Below are positions 25,438-41,681 of a DNA stretch of 41,681 bases, in pieces. Position 1 is the stretch's first letter. The number at the start of each line of letters is the position of its first letter. The DNA is from a virus, in the IMG/VR virus record IMGVR_UViG_3300037010_001482, positions 1-41,681 of that record; one strand, given 5' to 3'. The notes under the pieces were generated by a model. That model had not been told where the DNA came from, searched no databases, and saw nothing but the letters and a program-made list of their open reading frames with translations. Both the position numbers and the translations under genes were made by a program.

Positions 25438-25521
25438 GTTCAGTAGTATTCGTTACTTACTACCCGCAGCATTACCTGCAACGCTGCATGTTTCCATGCA
25501 GAACAGACTATATCTTCTACC
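25438..25521 (-). repeat. 84-base repeat, intron 3' domain, copy A
   Basis: 84 bases identical to 30235-30318 by eye. It covers the P7 3' strand, P9 and the 3' end of the group I intron up to 6 bases before the splice site. The rest of the core is also alike but diverged, with paired changes, for example stem CTTGTC/GACAAG here against CCTGTT/AACAGG in the other copy. Confidence 0.9.
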
Positions 25522-25736
25522 TTCTTAAAGGTAGTTCCCCATTTCGGATCACTTGATCCTACACCCTGATAAGGGGTTAGTCGTTGAACCTTCTTGTCTT
25601 TGACAAGCTTGGCTGCGGATTGTCTCATCTTTGTTTCTTTTACCATACCTGAATAGTTAGTTCAGCCATTACGTGTATCACTACCGTAACTTGGTGCACA
25701 AAGCTCTTAGAGATGTTCCCGTCAATTAGAGGAAAT

Positions 25737-26729
25737 TCATATTATCGATCTCTCGATAAATGGACCATTATTCAAACTATAACGTAAATACTTCTTACCA
25801 TCTTTCCAAAACTTTTCTTGACCAACATCAAGTCTATAATTAAGAGCAGTTGGTTTAAGATCATTGGCTATTGCTGCTTCTTTGGCAGTATTATAAATGA
25901 TCTCAACACTTTTTTTATCAATTACTAGAACTTTTTGTTCATCTGTTTCACTATCTTTCTTTAACTCTATTTCTTTTGAGTCTATCCAATCAGAATTATC
26001 AAACAAACTTTTTACTTGCCATCTTCCGTTGAAAACAGGATGCTTAAATCTATCTAAGTTTATACTAAGAGTTGACAAAGCTATACCTAAGAAATTAACA
26101 ACTTCTGTATGGTTATTATAAACCTTTAGAATATTTTCTTGTAAATCTAAAACTAGTAAACCAGTTGGTGTTTCTCTCTTCATGATTAATTCCATTAAAC
26201 ATGAAGGTTCAGGCCAAGGTTGATTGCTAGCTGGTATTCTAAAAAGTCCAAAATCAAGATGTTCTGTTTGGTTACTAGAAAATGCTCTATAAAGAACTTT
26301 TTCTTTTGATAATCCCAAAGCTTTTGCACAACTAGAAATAGAGGAGAAAGTATAAATCTGATCTGTAACACTACACTTGTATTGACAAGTTCTTGTTTCA
26401 TTTAGACCAGTTCTGAAAGCATGTTTGTGGTTGTTTTCATTTGTCATCCATTCTAAGTTATCTGGATGACAGTCTTCTTTATTACCATTTTTATGATTAA
26501 CAGTTAAATAAGAATGATTTTTTGGAAGTCCGTGACTTAAAGCAGCGATAATACGATGCTTTCTTAAAAATTTAGTCTTACCTAACTTACATGTTAAATT
26601 GTAGTATAAGTAACCATCTTTATTTCTAAAAACAGGACACTCTCTACCGGTACTCTTTACAAACACACGTCCGTCTATAGTGAAGTTATATCTATCAAAA
26701 TCTGTTATATCAGTAAAATGTATTTTCAC
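25737..26729 (-). CDS. HNH homing endonuclease with NUMOD1-like repeats, intron-encoded
   Basis: 330 residues from a GTG with AAAGGA 9 bases upstream; an ATG 13 codons earlier lacks a ribosome binding site. Residues 54-95 carry the HNH fold: KHRI, then VNHKNGN and CHPDNLEWMTNENN, with His79 and the CHPDN loop as likely active-site parts. Three NUMOD1-like DNA-binding repeats follow (around residues 118-155, 195-235 and 265-305, each of the pattern V.D......Y....EA....G....). Such enzymes cut intronless alleles to spread the intron. The gene lies in the 5' domain of the beta intron and ends just before P4, so its translation may compete with folding. Confidence 0.88.
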   Translation of the reverse strand: MKIHFTDITDFDRYNFTIDGRVFVKSTGRECPVFRNKDGYLYYNLTCKLGKTKFLRKHRIIAALSHGLPKNHSYLTVNHKNGNKEDCHPDNLEWMTNENNHKHAFRTGLNETRTCQYKCSVTDQIYTFSSISSCAKALGLSKEKVLYRAFSSNQTEHLDFGLFRIPASNQPWPEPSCLMELIMKRETPTGLLVLDLQENILKVYNNHTEVVNFLGIALSTLSINLDRFKHPVFNGRWQVKSLFDNSDWIDSKEIELKKDSETDEQKVLVIDKKSVEIIYNTAKEAAIANDLKPTALNYRLDVGQEKFWKDGKKYLRYSLNNGPFIERSII

Positions 26730-26804
26730 GGTAATGTATCCTTTTGTATTCCACAAAAGATAATACATCGATATATTTTTATATCACGTTATAGTTAAAT
26801 GTTA

Positions 26805-30234: not shown

Positions 30235-30318
30235 GTTCAGTAGTATTCGTTACTTACTACCCGCAGCATTACCTGCAACGCTGCATGTTTCCATGCAGAA
30301 CAGACTATATCTTCTACC
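30235..30318 (-). repeat. 84-base repeat, intron 3' domain, copy B
   Basis: Identical by eye to 25438-25521. The copies lie 4.8 kb apart in the same orientation inside two adjacent genes, so they mark recent common descent of the introns and are also possible recombination sites. Confidence 0.9.
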
Positions 30319-30550
30319 TCTCAACGAGGTAGCTTCCTATTTCGGATCACTTGATCCTACACCTTGCTAAGGGGTTAGTCGTTGAACCTTCCTGTTATGA
30401 ACAGGCTTGGATGCGGATTTCCTAATCTTTCTCTTTATTACTATACCTGAGTAGTTAGTTCAGCCACCATGTATGTCACCATCATGGTTTAGTAGAGAAA
30501 GCTCTAAAGGGGTTCCCGTCAATTAAGGAAGATACGATGTAATAGTAAAA

Positions 30551-30760
30551 TTACATCGGACCTAATAAGTTTACTGGTAAACGTAAAGGATAACAAAGGA
30601 AATTATCATCTTCTGATTTTCCATTGTTTTTTAATTCGAAAGTAAAAAGTTGATGATTCTAAATTAATTAAAGAAGCAGACTTTAAGTAACCACAGTAGT
30701 ATTATCTAGAAAATAAAATACTTTCGCATTATCATTACGTTCATCATTATTTTTTAACAT
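30551..30760 (-). pseudogene. Decayed remnant of an intron endonuclease
   Basis: In the 5' domain of the beta-prime intron. An ATG at 30760 behind AAAAGGTGG opens a 25-codon frame (ending YFLDNTTVVT, stop at 30683). A shifted frame continues LKSASLINLESSTFYFRI, and another shift gives FLCYPLRLPVNLLGPM and a stop at 30551. Read across the shifts this resembles the last NUMOD1-like repeat and C-terminus of the HNH protein in the beta intron (KVLVIDKKSVEIIYNTAKEA ... KKYLRYSLNNGPF). The TTTACGTT and GGTCC stretches before P4 also correspond at DNA level. The likeness is by eye and moderate. Confidence 0.4.
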
Positions 30761-30816
30761 ATATTAAACCACCTTTTCATATGACTAGGTAGTCAATATA
30801 CGGCAACTTATTGTTG

Positions 30817-32256
30817 ATCAGCGCCAAGACGAGCCAAATGAGCCGGAGCTGGTGACATGGAATTAAACCATTGACCTACACCTGGAAACTCTGGAGCAAC
30901 ATCTTTACTTGGACTCCAGTCAGTATCAGACAAAGCTATCAGGTTCATGGAATCTGAAGTAGTCTTGAGATAAGGAAGAGAAGGATAGATAGAACCAAAA
31001 CCAGTGATTGGGTAACGTGAAGAGAAAAGTGGGAAAGTTCCTACATCTTTGTAAAGAACAAGATAGAACAGATCACTCAAGCGAAGAGGCCTTACATTCT
31101 TGCGATCGTAACCACCAGCTAACTCTCCTATATCGTAGAAGACTTTAAAACAAAGTTTATCTTGGTAGATAAGAGCAGCGTATTCACCACCAATAGTAAC
31201 TGGTTCATTGCGAATACCTTCAACTGCGAATGTATTAAAAATCTTATCCAAACCTTCGTCCGTCATCCAAAGATCATATTCACTAGGATGAACAGTAATT
31301 TGTTTAGACGTGAAAGTCTTAGCATCTACCACATTCACTGGAAGTTTAGGATCACTAAAGTTCTTACTTAAAAACTCTTTTACCCTGAACCGCATGATAG
31401 GGGCTAAAGACTTAACCATCTGGTAAAGACCAACAATAGTGTTGTTGAATCCAGGATTAGTTTTGTCACCCAGTTTTTGAATCACAACGTCTGTGGTAGT
31501 AATAACATTGCGAGTACTGTCATGAATGGCACGAGTTGCCCATTTACCCATGTAAAGTTTTTTCTTACCCTTAATGGAGTTCATGATCAGATCGTAAACA
31601 TCAACAAAAGTTAATTGAATATTAACCCGTGATTGATTATAAAGCTCTGGAGATAGCTTAAACGAATTAACACTGATCGAATTAGACAAAGATAACATCT
31701 TACGATAAAGTAAGTTAATCTCTTCTTCCTCTTCTTGGCCATTGTCCTTAATCTCGTAATCACGAAGACCAGCAGGCATAACTACCAAGACAGAACAAAG
31801 AGCATTGTCTTTAGATTGTTTGATAAGTTTGATGTTATCACTGCGACTATCGGAATTACTTTCTTTGAAATCAATTTCTCTCCAATATTTCTCGAAGAAG
31901 AAGAAACCAGTTTGACCATCAAGTTGATTAGACTTCACAAAGTCTTTTTCTTCTTTATCCCAAACAGCATAAGACTTACCAGTGATGATCTCAGGATACA
32001 GTCGTTTGAGTTTACCAAAGATGCTGTAAATGATTGGATGAAATACAGGTATCTTGAAGTCAATATAAGAGTAATTAGCAGAACGCTTAGAATCACCTAT
32101 TTTACCAAAGGTTTCTGTGGAGAATAAACCATCAGGATGAAACTGTTTTGTACCACCCTCAAAGATATCCAGGGTCTTTACAGGCCTTATCAACTTGAAA
32201 TCAACAAGTGTAGGAAGTAGTAAAGCCAAGTTAAAAGGAACGGAAGTATCAGACAC
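30817..32256 (-). CDS. RNA polymerase beta-prime N-terminal subunit, exon 1 (480 residues)
   Basis: 480 residues, GTG start after AAGGAAACTCAAATC. Around residue 235, GKWATRAIHDSTRNVIT parallels the beta-prime GKRVDYSGRSVI motif. Around residue 413, RYPITGFGSIYPS takes the place of NRAPTLHRLGIQAF, and the exon ends HLARLGAD, the first half of NADFDGD. The annotated-looking C-terminus QQ-stop is intron sequence. Joined to 30055-30228 the protein is 537 residues, corresponding to phiKZ gp180 by position and content. It is the first gene of the beta-prime/beta operon and is divergent from the giant tail hydrolase. Confidence 0.9.
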
Positions 32257-32427
32257 GATTTGAGTTTCCTTATAAATACTTGTTATAAACCAAAATTAAA
32301 GTTTGAATTGTTATGATTGATTACCGTAACTACTTGTTATGGTTATAACCATTAAAAAAACCGTTAAGAGAATCATGAGAAAACTCTTAGACGTGTTGTC
32401 AAATTATTTTGCCTTAGGAGTAAAAAA
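32257..32427. promoter_or_regulatory. Divergent control region between RNA polymerase and tail hydrolase
   Basis: 171 bases serving both strands. It holds a direct repeat TACTTGTTAT at 32277-32286 and 32331-32340, the second running into a perfect 14-base palindrome ATGGTTATAACCAT (32339-32352). A small inverted repeat TAAGAG/CTCTTA lies at about 32365-32391. The hydrolase gene has TAGGAG 7 bases before its GTG. These are candidate promoter or operator sites; none is a motif I can name. Confidence 0.5.
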
Positions 32428-35400
32428 GTGAGCAAAAAGAAAATGCAGGTTGATAATGTCGACTTGGATAGTAGCTTGGAGTTCAATGACTTTGACATGG
32501 GCTTTCCAGATTTAAGCGACGATAGAACTCCAGTCTCAAAACCTGGTAAAGCTTTTGTAAAAGGTTTAGGTAAAGGTTTATCGGATAAGTCTTTAATTAG
32601 TGATCTGATGAAGAAAAATCTACCAAGAGAATATGGTAGTACTTTTGACATGTTAGATGAAGTTGCTACTGGAGCTAGAAACTTCAGTGCTGACATGGTC
32701 AAGGAATCTAAACCCATCATCGGTAATTTAGCCAATGCAGCTGATAAGTTCTTACCTAGTAGTTTTAAATCTACTAAGGAAAAACTCAGCAGGGTTCGTG
32801 ATTGGGCTGAGAAAGAAGATAGCTATGGTTCTATTTCCAAAGACGAACGGCGCAAACAAGGCACTGGTATCGAACTTGGTCGTATCTTTGAGCAACAACA
32901 ACAGACTCAAGCTATCAACGACAAGATCAGTAAGAAAGAGAAAGACTTCGATCGTGGTTTGGGGATGGCCCAACACAAAGATATTCTTACTGTTCTTACA
33001 CGGCTATCTAACAACACTGAACGTGTAGCTGGTTATACCACTACTATTAATTCAGCTTGGCAACGTAAGAGTTTAGAAACTCAGTTCCATCAGTTGTTTG
33101 TTCTTCAAGATATCTTAGAAGAATCTAAGAAGAGTAATGCTGAAGTTATTAGTAATTTAACTTCCATCGTTAAGAACAGTGCTTTACCTGAATATCGTAA
33201 AACACAAAAGGATGAAGCTTTCTTAGATGAAGCTCGTCGTAGGTTCTCTGGTAAGATTGTTGATGCATCACATAACTTCTTTAAACGTGGTCTTAGTAAG
33301 ATGCGTTCTGATGTTAGTGCTTTTGTTGGTGACATCGCTAGTGTTTCCTCGATGCTCTCTACTGCTGGTGATTTAAACGCATTACAAAATGAGTTTGATC
33401 CCACAACAATGAAAGACAAGTTATCAGGTTTTGCTGGTAATAAAGTTGGTAAATGGGCTTTATCTAAAGTCGGTGGTCATCTTATTAAATCAGCTAAGAA
33501 GAATCCTAAGTATGTCGACAAGATTGCTAAAGGACAAAACTTCTTAAAGTCTTTCCAAATGGATGGCTCTGGTTTAGCCAAAGAGTATCTTGACAGAAAA
33601 GATAAAGATGGTTCTGGTTTGATGAGCATGATTGCTGGGTATCTTAACAATACCTTCGAACATCAGAAACCCAATTACAACTTAGCAACTTACGATGCTA
33701 AGAACATGTATGGTGCTTCTCCTTTTACTAATAAAGTTGCTTACAGTATCACGGATGTAATTCCAGGTTACCTCTCACGTATCTTGCAAGAACAAACCGC
33801 AATGCGTACAGGTGGACAAGCTGAAAGAATTGTATTCGATTATCGTTCTGGTAAATTTGATACTTCTAAAAATATCATTGATTCTATTAAGAAGAGTATT
33901 TCTTCTGATGAATTGAGTAAGTCAAGTTCTGGTCATTTCAATGACATCATGTCAAAGATTGAAGAGACTACTGATCTTTCCGATAAAGAACGTTCTGAGA
34001 TTGCTAAAGTTCTCTTGAAGAAGGGATCTGATGAGTCTTCTATTGATCCTGAGAAAATGACCAGTGAAGATCATTGGAAAGATTTAGTCAGTGATCCCAA
34101 GACTGCAGCTAAGATGTCTCAGTTCATGGAAAACCTTTTTGGTACAAAATCCAATAAAGAGTTTTATGGTTTCAATAATGATCCACAAAAGAAAGCTGAA
34201 GCTAATCAGTGGATTGAACAAGTTAAGAATTTAAAACATCTTCGTAAAGACAAATACAACGATGCTCAGTTCCTTGTTGACAACGGAATGATGGAGCATG
34301 CTCAAAAAGCTGGACTTGTTGATAAAGATGGTAGATACAATAGTGATCTCATTGATCACAATACTACTCAACTTAAAGGATCTTTCAAAGGTAAAGGTTC
34401 TACTGGTGTTGATGTACTAAAAGAAATACGTGAATCAAAGACTGACCTGGGTGGTCATGATGAAGGTGTAGTTGAAGGTGCTTATCAACTTGGTAAGCGA
34501 GCTTTACGTTTAGAATCAGCTGAAGAGCGTGAAAAACGTTTAGGTACTTCTGACATCAACGTTAAAGACCATATCAAAAAGCCAGGTAATGTCTTAGGTC
34601 CTATTTCACGTTTACCTATTAAAGAGTGGCAATACAAACCTGGTCATGAGGATGGTGGTAAGACCAAGAACATTGGTCCTATGGCTCAAGACTTGAATCG
34701 ACAGTTTGGAGAAGAAGTTGCTCCTACTGGTAAAAAGATCGATTTGGTGAATGCTAATGGTATTGCTTTTAAGGCCATTCAAGAACTTAATAGTAAGTTT
34801 GATAAGTTTAAAGATTACTTTAAGAAGACTTCTCCAAAGGTTGTCTCTGAAGAAAAAGATGCTCCATCTAGTGCTCTTCCTCAAAACGTATTAAGTTGCT
34901 TACGTGGTATTTACTACAATACTGGTAAAATGGTTGAACAAGGTTTAGTCAATATCAATCTTAGTACTGAGGGTATTAAGAACATGGCAGCTGCTCTAGG
35001 TCAACAACTAGGTAAAGTTGATTTATCTGGTGCTGGTGACAAAGCTAAAGCAGCTTACGATAAAGCTTCTACTTTTGTTAAAGAGAATTCTGCTTCTTCC
35101 GTTCTAGGTAAAATAGGCGATTTTATTAGTAACACCGGTGGTGATACTGTTAAAAACGGATTACAAAGAGGTAAGTCTATTCTCTCTAGTAGTTTCTCCG
35201 GTGCTAAAAACATAATGAATTCAGTTCGTGAAACAGCTGGTTCTATGTTTGATCACGTTAAAATGCGTGCTTTAGAAACGTTTGATGTTTACATGCCTGG
35301 TGAGAAAGAACCACGTATGATAGCTGTTAAAATGCGACAAGGTTATTACATCGACTTTAAAAAGCAAACTCCAGTTAAAACACGTAAAGATGTACGTGAA

Positions 35401-38400
35401 GCTACAGAAGGTATTACAGAGGTTCAAACCGATGGATCCATGGAGATGATTTTGCAAGGGTCTGAATTACCTGATGCTATCTTTATTAATACTCACAAGT
35501 CTGCTATTGAGAAGGTTATTCAAGGTGGTGCTAATACTGTTAAGAGTGTTTTCAATAACATCCTTAAACCAGGTTTCATTAATGCACAAACTTTGATGAA
35601 GGGTGCTAAAGCTTTAGTATTAAAAACTCTTGATGCCCCAATAGATATTTATCTAAAGAAAGATCCTTCTAAATGCGTACTCTTAGCTAGGGTGATGCGT
35701 GAAGGTGGATACAGAGACCATCAAGATGGTACCATCATTACACGTCCTGGTCAGATCAAAGGTGCTGTCTTTGATATTGCTAAGAATGAAATTGCTGTTT
35801 CTTTAGATGACTTCAGAGATGGCTTAGTTGATATCAATGGTAAGTCTATTACTTTCTCTGCTTTACGTACAGTTGCAGGCGCTGTTATAGGTGCTGGTGC
35901 TTCTATCATGCGTTCTACTATGGATAAGCTCTCTAAAGCTCCTGGTATTCTTGGTAAGTTAGCCAAGAAGGGTACAGACATGATGAAGAGTCTGGCAAGT
36001 AAGCTGGGAATACCAAGTTTTACTTTAGGTAACTTCTTTGGAACTGAAGCTGTAGATATCTTGAAAGATATTAAAAGTATTTTAATGTACCAAGCAGGTT
36101 TGGGTGCTGCACCAGTTATAGGTGGAGTTAAGAGTGCTGTAAAGAGCGCTGTTAGTAAAGCTACCACTTCTGTTTCTGGTAAATTCAAACAAGCTGTAAC
36201 TCCTAGTTTAGAATCTGGAGCTAGTATCATAGCTCCACCTAAAGAAAATGTAAACGCTGTTGATCCTGATAAACCAGTCAGTACAACTGAAGCTAAAACA
36301 GAGTCTTCTGGTATAGGTTCTATGCTAATGAAAGGTGTTGGTGGCGCTGCTTCCTTACTAGGTTCTTTCTTCAAGAAAAAGAAAGAACCTGCCGGTGCTG
36401 GATCTAGTACAGAAGACTCTGAAGACAAGTTAAAGTCTGTAGAGGAAACAAATAAGAGAGAAAATGAGCGAGAAAATAAAATCAGTAAATTATCAAAAAC
36501 TCTTAAAGGGTTTAAAGATAAATTATCAGAGAAGAAAGATAAAACTGTAGATGCCCTTAAGAGAGCTAGAACTATAGCTAAAGATGGCATATCGAGAACC
36601 GCTGATGGACTCAAAGTTGGTTCATGGCAAGAACGTGCTAAGAATGCAATCAATATCAATAAAGAAGTAGCCCGTGATAAAGCTGATGTTAAAGTCTATG
36701 CGACTAAAAACATCTTCACAATGATCGCGGATATGACTAAGACAGTTAGTAAGAAACTTCGTGATTGGTTTAGCAAGAGCGGTGACCCAGCACAAACCGC
36801 AGGAGACATTGCCGATGCCGCTGGTGGTAACGGAAAAAGTAAACCAGGTGGTGGCGGTAAATGGGGCAAGATGGCTAAATTTGCTGGTAGGTTTGCAACA
36901 GGTGCTGGTGCTGCCTATCTTGGAAGTGGCGCTATCGATAATGCTCAAGAAGGTAACTATGGAAAAGCAGCTTTAGAAGGTGCTGGTGCTGCTGCTTTAG
37001 CTGCTCACTCATATGGAGGAATGACAGCTGTAAAAGCTTTAGGTAAAGGAGCAATGAAAATAGGTGGCAAGTTTTTAGGGCCAGCTGGTCTTGCTTACGG
37101 TGCCTATAGCGCATATGACAATGTCAAGAAAGGCAACTACGGAGAAGCAGCGGTAGACGCAGGTCTTACTGTGGCCGGAGGTGCTCTTATGTATGGCGGT
37201 GCAGGTGCCCTGGGTATTACTGCTGGTTCTATCGGTACAGGGCTGTTAGCTGCTGGTGGAACTGCCTTAGCTATTCTGACTTCTCCTGTTACTTTAACTG
37301 CTCTGGCTGTAGCTGGTGCTGCTGCTGTTGTCGGTTATGGTGGTTACAAAGCTTATAAATATTTAACCAGTAAAGACTTCAATCCTACTGAACTCATGCG
37401 TTTCCTTGAGTACGGTTTGCGTGGTGGAGATACTGGTAACCAAAGAACTATTTATGAGTTGGAGCAATACTTAGAAGAAGTATCAACTACTAAACAAGAT
37501 TCTTGGGAAATAGATGATAAGAAGTTCGATCTTAAGAAAGCAATGTCTATTTTTGATATTGACGAGAAAGATCAAAAACGAGCTTCTGATTTCAATCTAT
37601 GGTTCGAAGGACGTTTCAAGCAGATCTTTGGTAAATGGAAACTCCTTATCAAATCAGTAGGTGATACAGATAAAATATCTTGGTTAGAAAAAGCCTCGGA
37701 TGCTAAACTGTTGGAAGTCTACAAAGGCTTCAAACCACACTACACTGCTTATTCAATAAGTTCATCTCCATTCAGTGATATTGAACTCAATACGGATTCT
37801 TCTGTTATTGACAACTATAAACTTGAATGGTCTAAAGGCATTATCGATAGTTCTAAGAAGAACAAAGATAAAGCAACTGAAAAAGGTGCTGTAGAAGCTG
37901 CTGTAGAAGCTGCTAAGAAAGAATTAGCGGACAAGAAAGCCGGAGATAAAACTCCTGGTTCTGAAGCATTACCTGAATCTAAACCAGTTGTTCCTTCTAC
38001 TGACTTTGATAGTAAATTAAAATCAGCTGCTGATTCTTATAAAGCTAGACTAAGTCCTCAAGATATCATTAAAAGTGGAACAGCCGCTGGTGCGCTTGCT
38101 GCACTACCTACTACAGCGCAAGCTGTTGGTGTTGATGAACCTGAAGACAAATCAGTAGGTGACAAAGCTTCTCCGGGTACTCCTCTTCCTAAGACTTCTA
38201 GTCCAGGAGCAGTATCTAGTTTACCAGGAGCAGGTGGTGATCTTTTAACTGGTTCAGGAGCTGACAAGTTCTTAACCATGGGTAAAGATGTTAACATCAA
38301 TGGTTTACATCCTTCAATGAAACGTCTCTTCTTAGGGATGGTTGAAGAGTATGGACAACTTACTGGTAAGAAGATTCAAGTTAATAGAGCTTACAGTTCA

Positions 38401-40113
38401 ACAGAAGAACAAGCAGCTCTTTATAAAGCGAATCCAAACAAAGCAGCCAAGCCTGGAACTTCCTTACACGAATTTGGTTTAGCCATTGATGCTCAGTCTT
38501 CTGACTTGAACGCGATGGAGAAATTAGGTTTAATGAAAAAGTATGGTTTCACTAGACCAATAGGTGGTGAACCTTGGCACATGGAAGCTGCTGGTATCTT
38601 TGACAATGGTGTTCGTCAGAAAGCTAAACGTGATCAAAGCTTTGCAGAAGCTTACATTGAATCTAGTGTTGGACACGGAGGAGGTGGTTTAGGTGCACGT
38701 GGTCGTAGCGATGAAATCAAACGCGATGACATGTATGCTAAGATGTTGTTTAGTGCAGGCACAACACCAGTTGATATAGTTAAGAAAGATGAAGCTCCAG
38801 GAGCTCCCGCTAAAGTTGCAGCCAATGATTCTGGAAAAGGATCTCCTGGATCTCCTGCAATAGGTAAAGCTGGTGCTCCTGATGCAACAGGAGTAACTGA
38901 CAAAGAATCTAAGGGTGGAAAGATCCCTAGTTCTGTTGGAAGTGGTAATGCTTCTAAAGACTCTTTCGATAAAACAGTTAAAGCAGCCAATGATAGTACT
39001 ATGCAAGACAGTAAAGATATTGCACAAGGAACTAGTAAAGGTGGAGCTTACCAGTCATTACCTGATTCAAAAGGGGATGGATGGGAAAACAATAAAGACA
39101 TGATTTTGGCTTCGGCTAAGTTAGTCGGCATTGATCCTGCCTTAGCTGCTGCTATAGCAGCTAAAGAATCAAGTCTTAGACCTGGTGCCCAGGGTGTTAA
39201 CTCTGCTAGTGGTAACAGTACTGCTCAAGGTCTATTTCAATTCATGCCCGATACTTGGAAAGAAATGGTAGCCAAGTATGGTGCTAAGTATGGAATAGCT
39301 CCAGGGACCTCTCCTATGGATGCTAGAGCCAATGTTGTTCTAGGCATGGAGTATCTTAAGTCTTCTATGAATAAAGGGGACGGTAGCCCTCAGGAAGCTT
39401 ATATGGGACACATGTTAGGTGCTACTGGATTAGAACGACTTAAGTCTTTGAAAGATGACGAAGTCGCTGCTAAATCCTTTCAATCACAAGCAGCTAATAA
39501 CCCTAAGGTTTTTTATGATGGTGGTGATGCTAGTAGGCCTTTTACCAAACAACAATTACTCACTAAAGTTAGTGATTCACTCAATAAAAACTTACAAGAT
39601 TTTAATATTCCACTAACTATCAAGAACAGTGTATCTGCTAATGGTAGTTTTGCAGATAAATTAAAAGCAGTTGAAAAATCATACAACGCTAAGTTTAGTC
39701 CTCAGGATGTCATTAAAAATAGTGCTCCAGTTGGAACTACAGAAGTTTCGTTTACTGCTCCTGAAGTTGAAGAGAGTTCTAAACAACAGAATTCCATGGT
39801 TGCCTTGACGAACCAGGCTCCAGTTATTACAAGCGCTAGAACAGCTCCTGTATTGGATAACACCAATAACGGAACTGCACGCATGGAGAAAATTGGTGGA
39901 GATCAGTTACAAGAACAGAAGTTAACTAATTCTATTCTTGTTGATATTAAAGATCTTCTTGCTAAGTCTCTCAATATGGGAACTGAAGCTAAACCTGCAG
40001 AGGCAATTGAACCGGTTGTTCGTAAAACGGAACCAACTACAGCTGCAGCCAATCAATCTAGGGAACCAACTCCTCTACCTCAATCGTACGTTCAGCGTCG
40101 TAGGGTAGCTTAA
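32428..40113 (+). CDS. Giant tail-associated murein hydrolase with embedded S74 chaperone-like domain
   Basis: 2561 residues, GTG start after TAGGAG, phiKZ gp181 position. In order: helical N-terminus; an S74 intramolecular-chaperone-like domain at about 708-790 (SDINVKDHI, IGPMAQDL, AFKAIQELNS; Ser708 at the usual cleavage site); two related beta domains at about 950-1030 and 1068-1135; a Lys/Glu coiled region; a Gly/Ala-rich hydrophobic stretch at about 1485-1645; an M15 peptidase at about 1945-2060 (His2014, Asp2021, His2051 as zinc ligands in SLHEFGLAID and PWHME); and an SLT lytic transglycosylase at about 2225-2390 (catalytic Glu2247 in AAKESSL). It should cut both peptide and glycan bonds of murein and perhaps line the inner-membrane channel during DNA entry. 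Confidence 0.9.
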   Translation: MSKKKMQVDNVDLDSSLEFNDFDMGFPDLSDDRTPVSKPGKAFVKGLGKGLSDKSLISDLMKKNLPREYGSTFDMLDEVATGARNFSADMVKESKPIIGNLANAADKFLPSSFKSTKEKLSRVRDWAEKEDSYGSISKDERRKQGTGIELGRIFEQQQQTQAINDKISKKEKDFDRGLGMAQHKDILTVLTRLSNNTERVAGYTTTINSAWQRKSLETQFHQLFVLQDILEESKKSNAEVISNLTSIVKNSALPEYRKTQKDEAFLDEARRRFSGKIVDASHNFFKRGLSKMRSDVSAFVGDIASVSSMLSTAGDLNALQNEFDPTTMKDKLSGFAGNKVGKWALSKVGGHLIKSAKKNPKYVDKIAKGQNFLKSFQMDGSGLAKEYLDRKDKDGSGLMSMIAGYLNNTFEHQKPNYNLATYDAKNMYGASPFTNKVAYSITDVIPGYLSRILQEQTAMRTGGQAERIVFDYRSGKFDTSKNIIDSIKKSISSDELSKSSSGHFNDIMSKIEETTDLSDKERSEIAKVLLKKGSDESSIDPEKMTSEDHWKDLVSDPKTAAKMSQFMENLFGTKSNKEFYGFNNDPQKKAEANQWIEQVKNLKHLRKDKYNDAQFLVDNGMMEHAQKAGLVDKDGRYNSDLIDHNTTQLKGSFKGKGSTGVDVLKEIRESKTDLGGHDEGVVEGAYQLGKRALRLESAEEREKRLGTSDINVKDHIKKPGNVLGPISRLPIKEWQYKPGHEDGGKTKNIGPMAQDLNRQFGEEVAPTGKKIDLVNANGIAFKAIQELNSKFDKFKDYFKKTSPKVVSEEKDAPSSALPQNVLSCLRGIYYNTGKMVEQGLVNINLSTEGIKNMAAALGQQLGKVDLSGAGDKAKAAYDKASTFVKENSASSVLGKIGDFISNTGGDTVKNGLQRGKSILSSSFSGAKNIMNSVRETAGSMFDHVKMRALETFDVYMPGEKEPRMIAVKMRQGYYIDFKKQTPVKTRKDVREATEGITEVQTDGSMEMILQGSELPDAIFINTHKSAIEKVIQGGANTVKSVFNNILKPGFINAQTLMKGAKALVLKTLDAPIDIYLKKDPSKCVLLARVMREGGYRDHQDGTIITRPGQIKGAVFDIAKNEIAVSLDDFRDGLVDINGKSITFSALRTVAGAVIGAGASIMRSTMDKLSKAPGILGKLAKKGTDMMKSLASKLGIPSFTLGNFFGTEAVDILKDIKSILMYQAGLGAAPVIGGVKSAVKSAVSKATTSVSGKFKQAVTPSLESGASIIAPPKENVNAVDPDKPVSTTEAKTESSGIGSMLMKGVGGAASLLGSFFKKKKEPAGAGSSTEDSEDKLKSVEETNKRENERENKISKLSKTLKGFKDKLSEKKDKTVDALKRARTIAKDGISRTADGLKVGSWQERAKNAININKEVARDKADVKVYATKNIFTMIADMTKTVSKKLRDWFSKSGDPAQTAGDIADAAGGNGKSKPGGGGKWGKMAKFAGRFATGAGAAYLGSGAIDNAQEGNYGKAALEGAGAAALAAHSYGGMTAVKALGKGAMKIGGKFLGPAGLAYGAYSAYDNVKKGNYGEAAVDAGLTVAGGALMYGGAGALGITAGSIGTGLLAAGGTALAILTSPVTLTALAVAGAAAVVGYGGYKAYKYLTSKDFNPTELMRFLEYGLRGGDTGNQRTIYELEQYLEEVSTTKQDSWEIDDKKFDLKKAMSIFDIDEKDQKRASDFNLWFEGRFKQIFGKWKLLIKSVGDTDKISWLEKASDAKLLEVYKGFKPHYTAYSISSSPFSDIELNTDSSVIDNYKLEWSKGIIDSSKKNKDKATEKGAVEAAVEAAKKELADKKAGDKTPGSEALPESKPVVPSTDFDSKLKSAADSYKARLSPQDIIKSGTAAGALAALPTTAQAVGVDEPEDKSVGDKASPGTPLPKTSSPGAVSSLPGAGGDLLTGSGADKFLTMGKDVNINGLHPSMKRLFLGMVEEYGQLTGKKIQVNRAYSSTEEQAALYKANPNKAAKPGTSLHEFGLAIDAQSSDLNAMEKLGLMKKYGFTRPIGGEPWHMEAAGIFDNGVRQKAKRDQSFAEAYIESSVGHGGGGLGARGRSDEIKRDDMYAKMLFSAGTTPVDIVKKDEAPGAPAKVAANDSGKGSPGSPAIGKAGAPDATGVTDKESKGGKIPSSVGSGNASKDSFDKTVKAANDSTMQDSKDIAQGTSKGGAYQSLPDSKGDGWENNKDMILASAKLVGIDPALAAAIAAKESSLRPGAQGVNSASGNSTAQGLFQFMPDTWKEMVAKYGAKYGIAPGTSPMDARANVVLGMEYLKSSMNKGDGSPQEAYMGHMLGATGLERLKSLKDDEVAAKSFQSQAANNPKVFYDGGDASRPFTKQQLLTKVSDSLNKNLQDFNIPLTIKNSVSANGSFADKLKAVEKSYNAKFSPQDVIKNSAPVGTTEVSFTAPEVEESSKQQNSMVALTNQAPVITSARTAPVLDNTNNGTARMEKIGGDQLQEQKLTNSILVDIKDLLAKSLNMGTEAKPAEAIEPVVRKTEPTTAAANQSREPTPLPQSYVQRRRVA

Positions 40114-40171: not shown

Positions 40172-40216
40172 TTTATGCCGTGTCAATTCTATGATGAAAA
40201 AATAAAGGATCTCGTT

Positions 40217-41681
40217 ATGGCTGATTTTAGTTTCTTGAGTGATGAGAGCATTCGTAAAAGTGCAGAGGTGTTATTGAAGGATAGACGAGTGGTTATTGGA
40301 GTAGGTGACGAAGGTAAACCAGATCTTATCAATGATAGCGATTGGGTACGTCAGTCTTTACATGCTAACTCGATAGCTCACACTAGTCGTAAGAAAGATC
40401 TGTTAAGATTTTGGACTAGTGCTGATACGAAGTTTGAAGATACTTCTTTAGGTGGTAATTACGTTGTTAATCCACGTCCACAGTTTACACGTTATGCTGA
40501 TACAAGAGCTTTAGGTATCAGTGGTGATACTGAGAAAGTATCCGTTGGTAAATTCAGTAACCGTTTAGGTATGGGTTTGTATTATGCCGATTCGATTGAT
40601 GATACCCATCAAACAATCCACATGATCTTTGGTCAGGCTGAGTTTAACTCGCTTGGAAATTACTTAACCAATTTCTTTGACCTTGATGCTTCGCGTTTAG
40701 CTAATGGTGGTCGTTGGACGCAAGCTATTGCTACTTTCTTTAAAATAGGTACTACTCTCTTTTTGGGTATTATCTTTTGGCCCATTACTTTAACTCTTTA
40801 TGGATTAAGTAAAGCAGAAGAAATTCTACAGTTCATGATGAGGAAGCCTGCTAGTAAATATTATTACATGCGCTCTAACATGCAGTTGTATTGGTCTACC
40901 GTTAGTTCTATTGTTAACAGAATTGCTACTACTTCAGGTATGACTAAATTTACTGAAGATGGTAACCTTTTAAAAAAAATGAGTGAAACTGGTGATACTG
41001 CACCTAAGGTTAATTCAGGTTACAAGGAAATGCTTTCAGCTCACTTTAAAGATATGTTCAACGATGATGGATATATCAACATTCAACGTGTTGTCAATAG
41101 AGCACAACGTTTAAGAAATGCTCTTGACACTAAGATTGAAGAGAAGATTTCTGCAGGTAGTGAAGAGTTTGCCACTTTTGTTAATGCAGCAATGCGTGAC
41201 CGTAAGGACACGAATATTGGTATGGGCGGTACTTCTTTAACAGCTCTTGCTAAGAGTTTTTATCAAGATGAACGTGAAAAGTTCCAACAACGAATGGATA
41301 CAGCGATTGGTGAGTGGAAAGAAAATGGCGATAAAGGAGGTGAGTTATCAAAAATCTCTCCTCTAGAATCAACTATCATGACTACTAAATCATCAGATAA
41401 AACAAAACTTACACCATCTAAGGGTTTAAACAAAGTCTTATCTTCTTTTGAATCTGAATGGCGTGATGGTTCTGCTTTTGCAACTTTCCGTGTTGACCAT
41501 ACTGGTTCTGTAGATGAGTCTTTTAGTTCAAGTGTTGGTGAGACGGATTTGAGTGCTAGTTTCAACAGTACTTCTGCCCAAGCACGTTCCGCTAAGTTTA
41601 GTTTAGCTGGAGGTAACATTGTTGGTGGTGTTCTAGGTGGAACTATTGGAGCTGTACTCGCAGCTGCAAAAGGCGTAGCAG
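40217..41681 (+). CDS. Probable virion protein with a membrane-type segment, cut by the window end
   Basis: An open frame from an ATG with AAAGGA 7 bases upstream to the last base, at least 488 residues (MADFSFLSDESIRKSAE...), no stop seen. Residues about 176-196 (TTLFLGIIFWPITLTLYGL) form a strong hydrophobic segment in an otherwise soluble protein. The last residues visible are a Gly/Ala-rich stretch (GGVLGGTIGAVLAA), a second membrane-type or glycine-zipper segment. The protein has no recognised catalytic motif. It follows the giant hydrolase and may share its transcript through the hairpin at 40130. A tail or ejected protein that meets the inner membrane is a reasonable guess from these segments; it corresponds by position to the gene after phiKZ gp181. 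Confidence 0.8.
   Translation, partial: MADFSFLSDESIRKSAEVLLKDRRVVIGVGDEGKPDLINDSDWVRQSLHANSIAHTSRKKDLLRFWTSADTKFEDTSLGGNYVVNPRPQFTRYADTRALGISGDTEKVSVGKFSNRLGMGLYYADSIDDTHQTIHMIFGQAEFNSLGNYLTNFFDLDASRLANGGRWTQAIATFFKIGTTLFLGIIFWPITLTLYGLSKAEEILQFMMRKPASKYYYMRSNMQLYWSTVSSIVNRIATTSGMTKFTEDGNLLKKMSETGDTAPKVNSGYKEMLSAHFKDMFNDDGYINIQRVVNRAQRLRNALDTKIEEKISAGSEEFATFVNAAMRDRKDTNIGMGGTSLTALAKSFYQDEREKFQQRMDTAIGEWKENGDKGGELSKISPLESTIMTTKSSDKTKLTPSKGLNKVLSSFESEWRDGSAFATFRVDHTGSVDESFSSSVGETDLSASFNSTSAQARSAKFSLAGGNIVGGVLGGTIGAVLAAAKGVA

Follow-up and report, generated by a model that had tools for sequence, protein, structure and literature searches.

S74 domains and giant tail proteins

In phages, Peptidase_S74 domains, also described as intramolecular chaperone autoprocessing (ICA) domains, are known as disposable chaperones at the tips of fibers. 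In tail spikes and fibers, such as the K1F endosialidase, the T5 L-shaped fiber, and the GA-1 neck appendage, the domain lies at the C terminus after a beta-helix and is discarded, and tail-spike cleavage reports correct folding of the trimer (PMC8326128, PMC3742443). The cutting pair of endoNF, S911 and K916, has been equated with S587 and K592 of MYRF (PMC8326128), and N912 and G956 of K1F, like the corresponding MYRF residues, are important for processing (PMC3742443). The signature is named the "SDxxxK catalytic motif" in PMC10769870, and a change of the serine abolishes cutting of Bd3182 from Bdellovibrio. In MYRF the domain lies in mid-protein and cuts the protein into two trimers (PMC3742443, PMC8326128).

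The giant tail protein of phiKZ-type jumbo phages has been given two roles. In phiKZ, gp181 has been portrayed as a puncturing device shaped like a needle and as a putative trimer (PMC5380687), and papers on SPN3US (PMC10052503, PMC5694885) call gp239 its tail tape measure protein; the distal ends of myophage tape measures are three-fold (PMC10966104). These roles differ, but either would make gp181 a tail component with three-fold or six-fold symmetry. In T4, the trimeric tail lysozyme gp5 is nicked mid-protein during maturation and its pieces stay assembled. S74 domains have been assigned to "group 2" jumbo phages in a review, with no mention found of the domain for the phiKZ group (PMC7824862).

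The window encodes a gp181-type tail protein

The DNA analyzed here (the window) is a stretch of 41,681 nucleotides from the viral metagenomic record IMGVR_UViG_3300037010_001482. It encodes a 2,561-residue protein on the plus strand, from a GTG start codon at 32428 to a stop codon ending at 40113, with a predicted ribosome-binding site (AGGAG, 32416 to 32420, plus strand) 5' of the start. The extent of this reading frame and the S74 signature motifs agreed with the initial annotation when checked against the sequence. The phrog_3201 profile matched residues 5 to 1839 (E = 6.5e-199), and together with blastp it identified the protein as a homologue of phiKZ gp181 over its N-terminal and central parts; SPN3US gp239 also matched. 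Gene order supports this assignment to the gp181-type giant tail proteins (tape measure or tail peptidoglycan hydrolase), since the locus is syntenic with those of phiKZ, SPN3US, and others. Virion RNA polymerase genes (gp178/gp180 homologues) lie upstream on the opposite strand, including a beta' piece homologous to gp180 that marks the locus (30808 to 32256, minus strand; 32 to 40% identity by alignment), and a gp182 homologue (phrog_3181; 40175 to 41681, plus strand) lies downstream and runs off the window end.

Two of the virion RNA polymerase genes are interrupted by group I introns (Rfam RF00028), at 25484 to 25782 (minus strand, 93 bits) and at 30281 to 30614 (minus strand, 66 bits). 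The first comes with an HNH endonuclease reading frame (25737 to 26768, minus strand), and the second sits at the catalytic LGAD/FDGD site, at which phiKZ gp180 and Goslar likewise end.

The first 640 residues of the giant protein (32428 to 34347) form an N-terminal domain that is conserved across all gp181 homologues compared and is mostly helical in a low-confidence AlphaFold prediction, with a long helix at residues 139 to 251. A variable linker (residues 641 to 707, 34348 to 34548) joins this domain to the S74 domain described below. Farther on are a hydrophobic, membrane-like stretch (residues 1581 to 1660, 37168 to 37407; hydropathy peak at 1616 to 1634) and two candidate peptidoglycan hydrolases. 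One is a VanY/M15 peptidase-like domain (residues 1946 to 2060, 38263 to 38607) with the motif residues H2014, D2021, and H2051; its Pfam VanY match at 1961 to 2029 scored 20.2 bits, under the cut-off of 25, and the corresponding match in one homologue (L155) reached 33.7 bits, above it. The other is an SLT lytic transglycosylase domain (residues 2226 to 2333, 39103 to 39426; PF01464, 43.6 bits with a cut-off of 21.3). Together they make up the hydrolase part that had been placed C-terminal of Ser708.

An S74 domain lies in the middle of the protein

The initial annotation had claimed an S74 domain in the middle of a giant tail lysin, with its serine kept. Pfam PF13884 (Peptidase_S74) matched residues 708 to 764 at 30.9 bits; this score and a second of 35.7 bits both exceed the curated cut-off of 22. 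E values were 3.4e-7 for the whole protein, 1e-8 for a fragment, and 1.5e-10 in a search of the record, in which this was the single S74 match. The domain as a whole spans residues 708 to about 801 (34549 to 34830, plus strand) and opens as T-SDINVK. Ser708 (34549 to 34551) is the expected nucleophile, equivalent to endoNF S911 and MYRF S587, and the predicted cut falls between Thr707 and Ser708. Lys713 (34564 to 34566), which had gone unnamed, is the expected catalytic base, equivalent to endoNF K916 and MYRF K592; the serine and lysine of SDxxxK were invariant in 64/64 aligned S74 sequences. Asp709 is the counterpart of K1F N912, and Gly750 (34675 to 34677) aligns with K1F G956 and MYRF G626.

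The fold agrees with the sequence. Monomer AlphaFold models of the S74 region, built from an alignment of the 64 S74 sequences, gave pLDDT values above 90 over most of residues 710 to 800 and of about 50 to 65 over 640 to 705, with a long helix extending the fold to about residue 801. The best Foldseek matches in the PDB were to the ICA domain of MYRF, in its three chains (7dc3; E = 3.4e-3, probability 1.00, TM to target 0.52), followed by the chaperone of the GA-1 neck appendage and, as a weak match, that of the endosialidase. Among viral structure models, the top matches were mostly named S74/ICA or tail-fiber proteins. When a profile of the 64 sequences was compared with the PDB, it matched tail fiber 8jov (3.9e-8), MYRF 7dc3 (9.7e-6), and 3gud (6e-3), a GA-1 appendage chain that starts at its own SDxxxK serine; a phmmer search of the PDB with the window S74 region alone gave no match. 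The structural E values are modest, and the sequence and structure evidence agree. The prediction did not return the outcome named beforehand as contradicting the domain, namely a structure with no relation to the S74 fold.

The score above the curated cut-off, the fold match, and the same position in ten homologues from other contigs exclude a chance match. These data confirm that the domain is genuine by score, serine-lysine pair, conserved glycine, and fold. Because the window comes from a metagenomic record, misassembly was considered together with chance as a source of the arrangement; the same architecture recurs in 12 contigs, in one open frame each and with flanks collinear with the gp181 family, and these independent contigs rule out both.

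The domain thus belongs to the same family as those of tail spikes and fibers, with the same SDxxxK motif, glycine, and fold, and differs from them in its setting. Whereas the tail-spike domain is C-terminal and released, about 1,760 residues follow the domain in the window protein, where it lies after a mostly helical part (predicted at low confidence) and is expected to stay attached to them. MYRF/MrfA is closer in this respect, having a mid-protein ICA domain with a Ser-Lys pair that gives N- and C-terminal oligomers upon cutting, and it is the best structural match. However, MYRF is a eukaryotic membrane-bound transcription factor with a DNA-binding domain and a beta-stalk and has no peptidoglycan hydrolases. 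A MYRF-type DNA-binding domain was absent from a Pfam scan of the window protein, and the likeness is one of mechanism alone.

Eleven gp181 homologues carry the domain

A scan with the S74 domain recovered 80 loci, 79 of which encode proteins of 237 to 629 residues with the S74 domain 4 to 175 residues from the C terminus. All 79 sampled S74 proteins outside the gp181 family thus bear out the earlier statement that the domain is normally C-terminal. The remaining locus (L042) encodes a 2,406-residue gp181 homologue with the domain at the same mid-protein position, and follow-on scans added further carriers (L113, L114, L122, L124, L125, L126, L127, L131, and L155; contig L133 encodes the same protein as L127). 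In total, S74-bearing gp181 homologues comprise 11 distinct proteins on 12 contigs. The domain always comes after the N-terminal domain and is followed by 1,350 to 1,870 residues. S74 profile scores over 39 gp181 homologues were bimodal, with carriers at 68 to 135 bits and all others at or below 1.8. Scans of viral contigs for patterns from one protein at a time (the full-length protein, its S74 region, or gp180) gave no matches, and alignments of all gp181s or all gp180s were too diverse to yield patterns.

At tblastn sensitivity, no S74 domain was found in gp181 of the isolated-phage collection. The 15 isolate homologues examined (phiKZ, 201phi2-1, SPN3US, Goslar, Eowyn, SNUABM_54, LucasX, DT01, sm033, Moabite, FBKp24, FLC6, SURPRISE13, FLC9, and PCH45) all lack it, and 5 of the 15 genomes have an S74 domain in another gene. 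phiKZ gp181 and SPN3US gp239 share with the window protein the N-terminal and central parts, the SLT domain, and the gene neighbors. Two other homologues deserve mention: one (L129:9872-16629) consists of two overlapping reading frames of 1,049 and 1,207 residues, either a true split gene or a frameshift error, and a 2,971-residue homologue without S74 is encoded on a 216-kb jumbo-phage-like contig of a Rhodoferax metagenome-assembled genome (L140, NZ_JAQTXM010000004.1).

Among ten carriers, mean identity was 43% for S74, 40% for SLT, 56% for M15, and 27% for the N-terminal domain; the linkers on both flanks of S74 averaged 16%, and the membrane-like stretch showed 36% identity among carriers. 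Outside the hydrolase domains, S74 is the best conserved stretch, with conservation weakening past residue 790 or so. Nine well-aligned carriers share 15 invariant columns, including S708, D709, K713, and G750. SDxxxK was found in 11/11 carriers, with ambiguous placement in one: in L114, SDINVK lies about 50 extra residues ahead of the rest of the domain. In L155 the motif reads SDINLK. L124 has a second SDxxxK 30 residues upstream of the S74 body, and the L114 and L124 motifs, near residues 672 to 702, are perhaps duplicated or displaced cut sites.

The 79 C-terminal S74 proteins mostly resemble phrog_8003 (head and packaging), virion proteins of DarB-type podophages. This is the nearest S74 class (E = 1.6e-10), reaching up to about 50% identity and likewise having no upstream beta-helix; it differs in that these proteins are about 400 residues long with S74 at the C terminus. 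Such proteins, encoded by loci L033 to L112 (e.g., L014 and L016), keep the catalytic pair, and their upstream part is helical and glycine-rich. The nearness of this class raises the idea that the gp181 domain has no function, being a relic or having come in neutrally from a small virion protein with S74, as does the lack of the domain in two members of the carrier clade (see below). With the catalytic residues kept in 11 deeply diverged carriers and the domain the best conserved non-hydrolase stretch, we consider a relic very improbable.

The domain lies in a variable linker

A gp181 tree built from the N-terminal 640 residues, and thus excluding S74, placed all 11 carriers within one clade of 13 members (support 91/90). 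The other two members, L116 and L128, lack the domain. The tree implies three changes in S74 presence or absence, and 0/500 shuffles gave as few. In a tree of S74 domains, those of gp181 formed one clade (SH-aLRT 90) with one change, and with a smaller set a single carrier clade was not rejected (p-AU 0.12). With three changes on the gp181 tree, a strict history of one gain and no loss is unsupported. A single acquisition followed by losses fits the trees, on which long branches limit certainty. One phiKZ-type jumbo-phage lineage probably gained the domain a single time, in the linker that follows the N-terminal domain, and most of the lineage kept it. Its absence from L116 and L128 indicates that its function can be lost or replaced.

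In other lineages the linker holds other modules (L012, L135, L123, and L119, compared with 34348 to 34830 of the window). "GEAGPEAIMPL"-type segments in FLC6, SURPRISE13, and L135 and a "VPxDMxAxIHxGEAIL" segment in L123 match tail tape measure families, and L119 has 13 collagen-like Gly-X-Y units. Isolate gp181 linkers are short, disordered, or provided with a tape-measure motif. The linker looks like a slot for the swapping of small modules.

These modules bear on the main rival to cleavage, in which S74 is a clamp that holds three gp181 chains in register where the N-terminal piece meets the tape and leaves the chain whole. S74-less relatives have tape-measure motifs in the same linker or a collagen-like stretch that could trimerize, cutting a ruler seems costly, and oligomerization is separable from cutting, since MYRF cleavage mutants still oligomerize (PMC3742443). 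However, a clamp with no use for cleavage should let the Ser-Lys pair drift at about 43% identity, and the unbroken retention of SDxxxK makes this explanation unlikely, though it is the strongest of the alternatives.

A candidate cutting step in the tail

Because the cutting residues are kept in all carriers, a cutting step is likely built into the tail. We infer trimerization, cleavage, retention of both pieces in the tail, and a role in ejection. In the favored model, to which we give a probability of roughly 0.58, S74 trimerizes gp181 before cutting it at 707/708, with both parts staying together. The domain would bring three chains together, and upon closure of the trimer, each chain would be cut between Thr707 and Ser708 by the Ser708-Lys713 pair. 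The products would be an N-terminal trimer of 707 residues and a C-terminal trimer of 1,854 residues, the latter with S74 at its new N terminus followed by the membrane-like segment and the M15 and SLT hydrolases. As with T4 gp5, the pieces would remain together in the tail up to the moment at which the C-terminal part is driven into the envelope of the cell. gp5 itself differs in having no S74, another fold, and another cut site. A more specific, MYRF-like version, in which gp181 is a pre-cut tape whose trimer-triggered cut allows release of the C-terminal part into the envelope, with the N-terminal part remaining in the tail, is possible but more tentative, at somewhat under even odds.

Several findings speak against the favored model. 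The usual S74 client, an upstream beta-helix, is not predicted here: no beta structure was predicted at residues 640 to 707 in the S74-region model (low pLDDT), and a model of residues 1 to 830 was too poor for a fold search (mean pLDDT 52). endoNF requires an Arg in its upstream stalk (PMC8326128). The displaced motif of L114, the two clade members without S74, and the weak conservation past residue 790 also count against it. However, the MYRF ICA domain has almost no contact with its stalk (PMC8326128), so the absence of an upstream beta-helix does not exclude cutting.

Cleavage might also be a folding check alone, leaving a nick without a later role and parts that act as if uncut. Tail-spike cleavage serves as such a report, and T4 gp5 works nicked yet assembled; the predicted cut site, which lies exactly between two large parts, suggests instead that their separation matters, and we regard a mere check as improbable.

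Implications

The initial annotation presented the arrangement as what would be a new use of the domain, a processing switch in a DNA-entry lysin; cleavage and a switch in DNA entry are both putative. As for novelty, part of this holds: no report of S74 within a tape measure or gp181 was found in the freely readable literature, and its use in a phage tail ruler or lysin appears to be new. The domain and its chemistry were already known, and its self-cutting use in mid-protein was known from MYRF. The gp181 clade would be a phage case of such MYRF-like use. If the model is true, it gives a simple route by which a giant tail protein is both trimerized and pre-cut, and how jumbo phages part the pieces retained in the tail from those entering the cell becomes testable with one short recombinant fragment. 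The clade also bears on the origin of mid-protein ICA arrangements such as that of MYRF.
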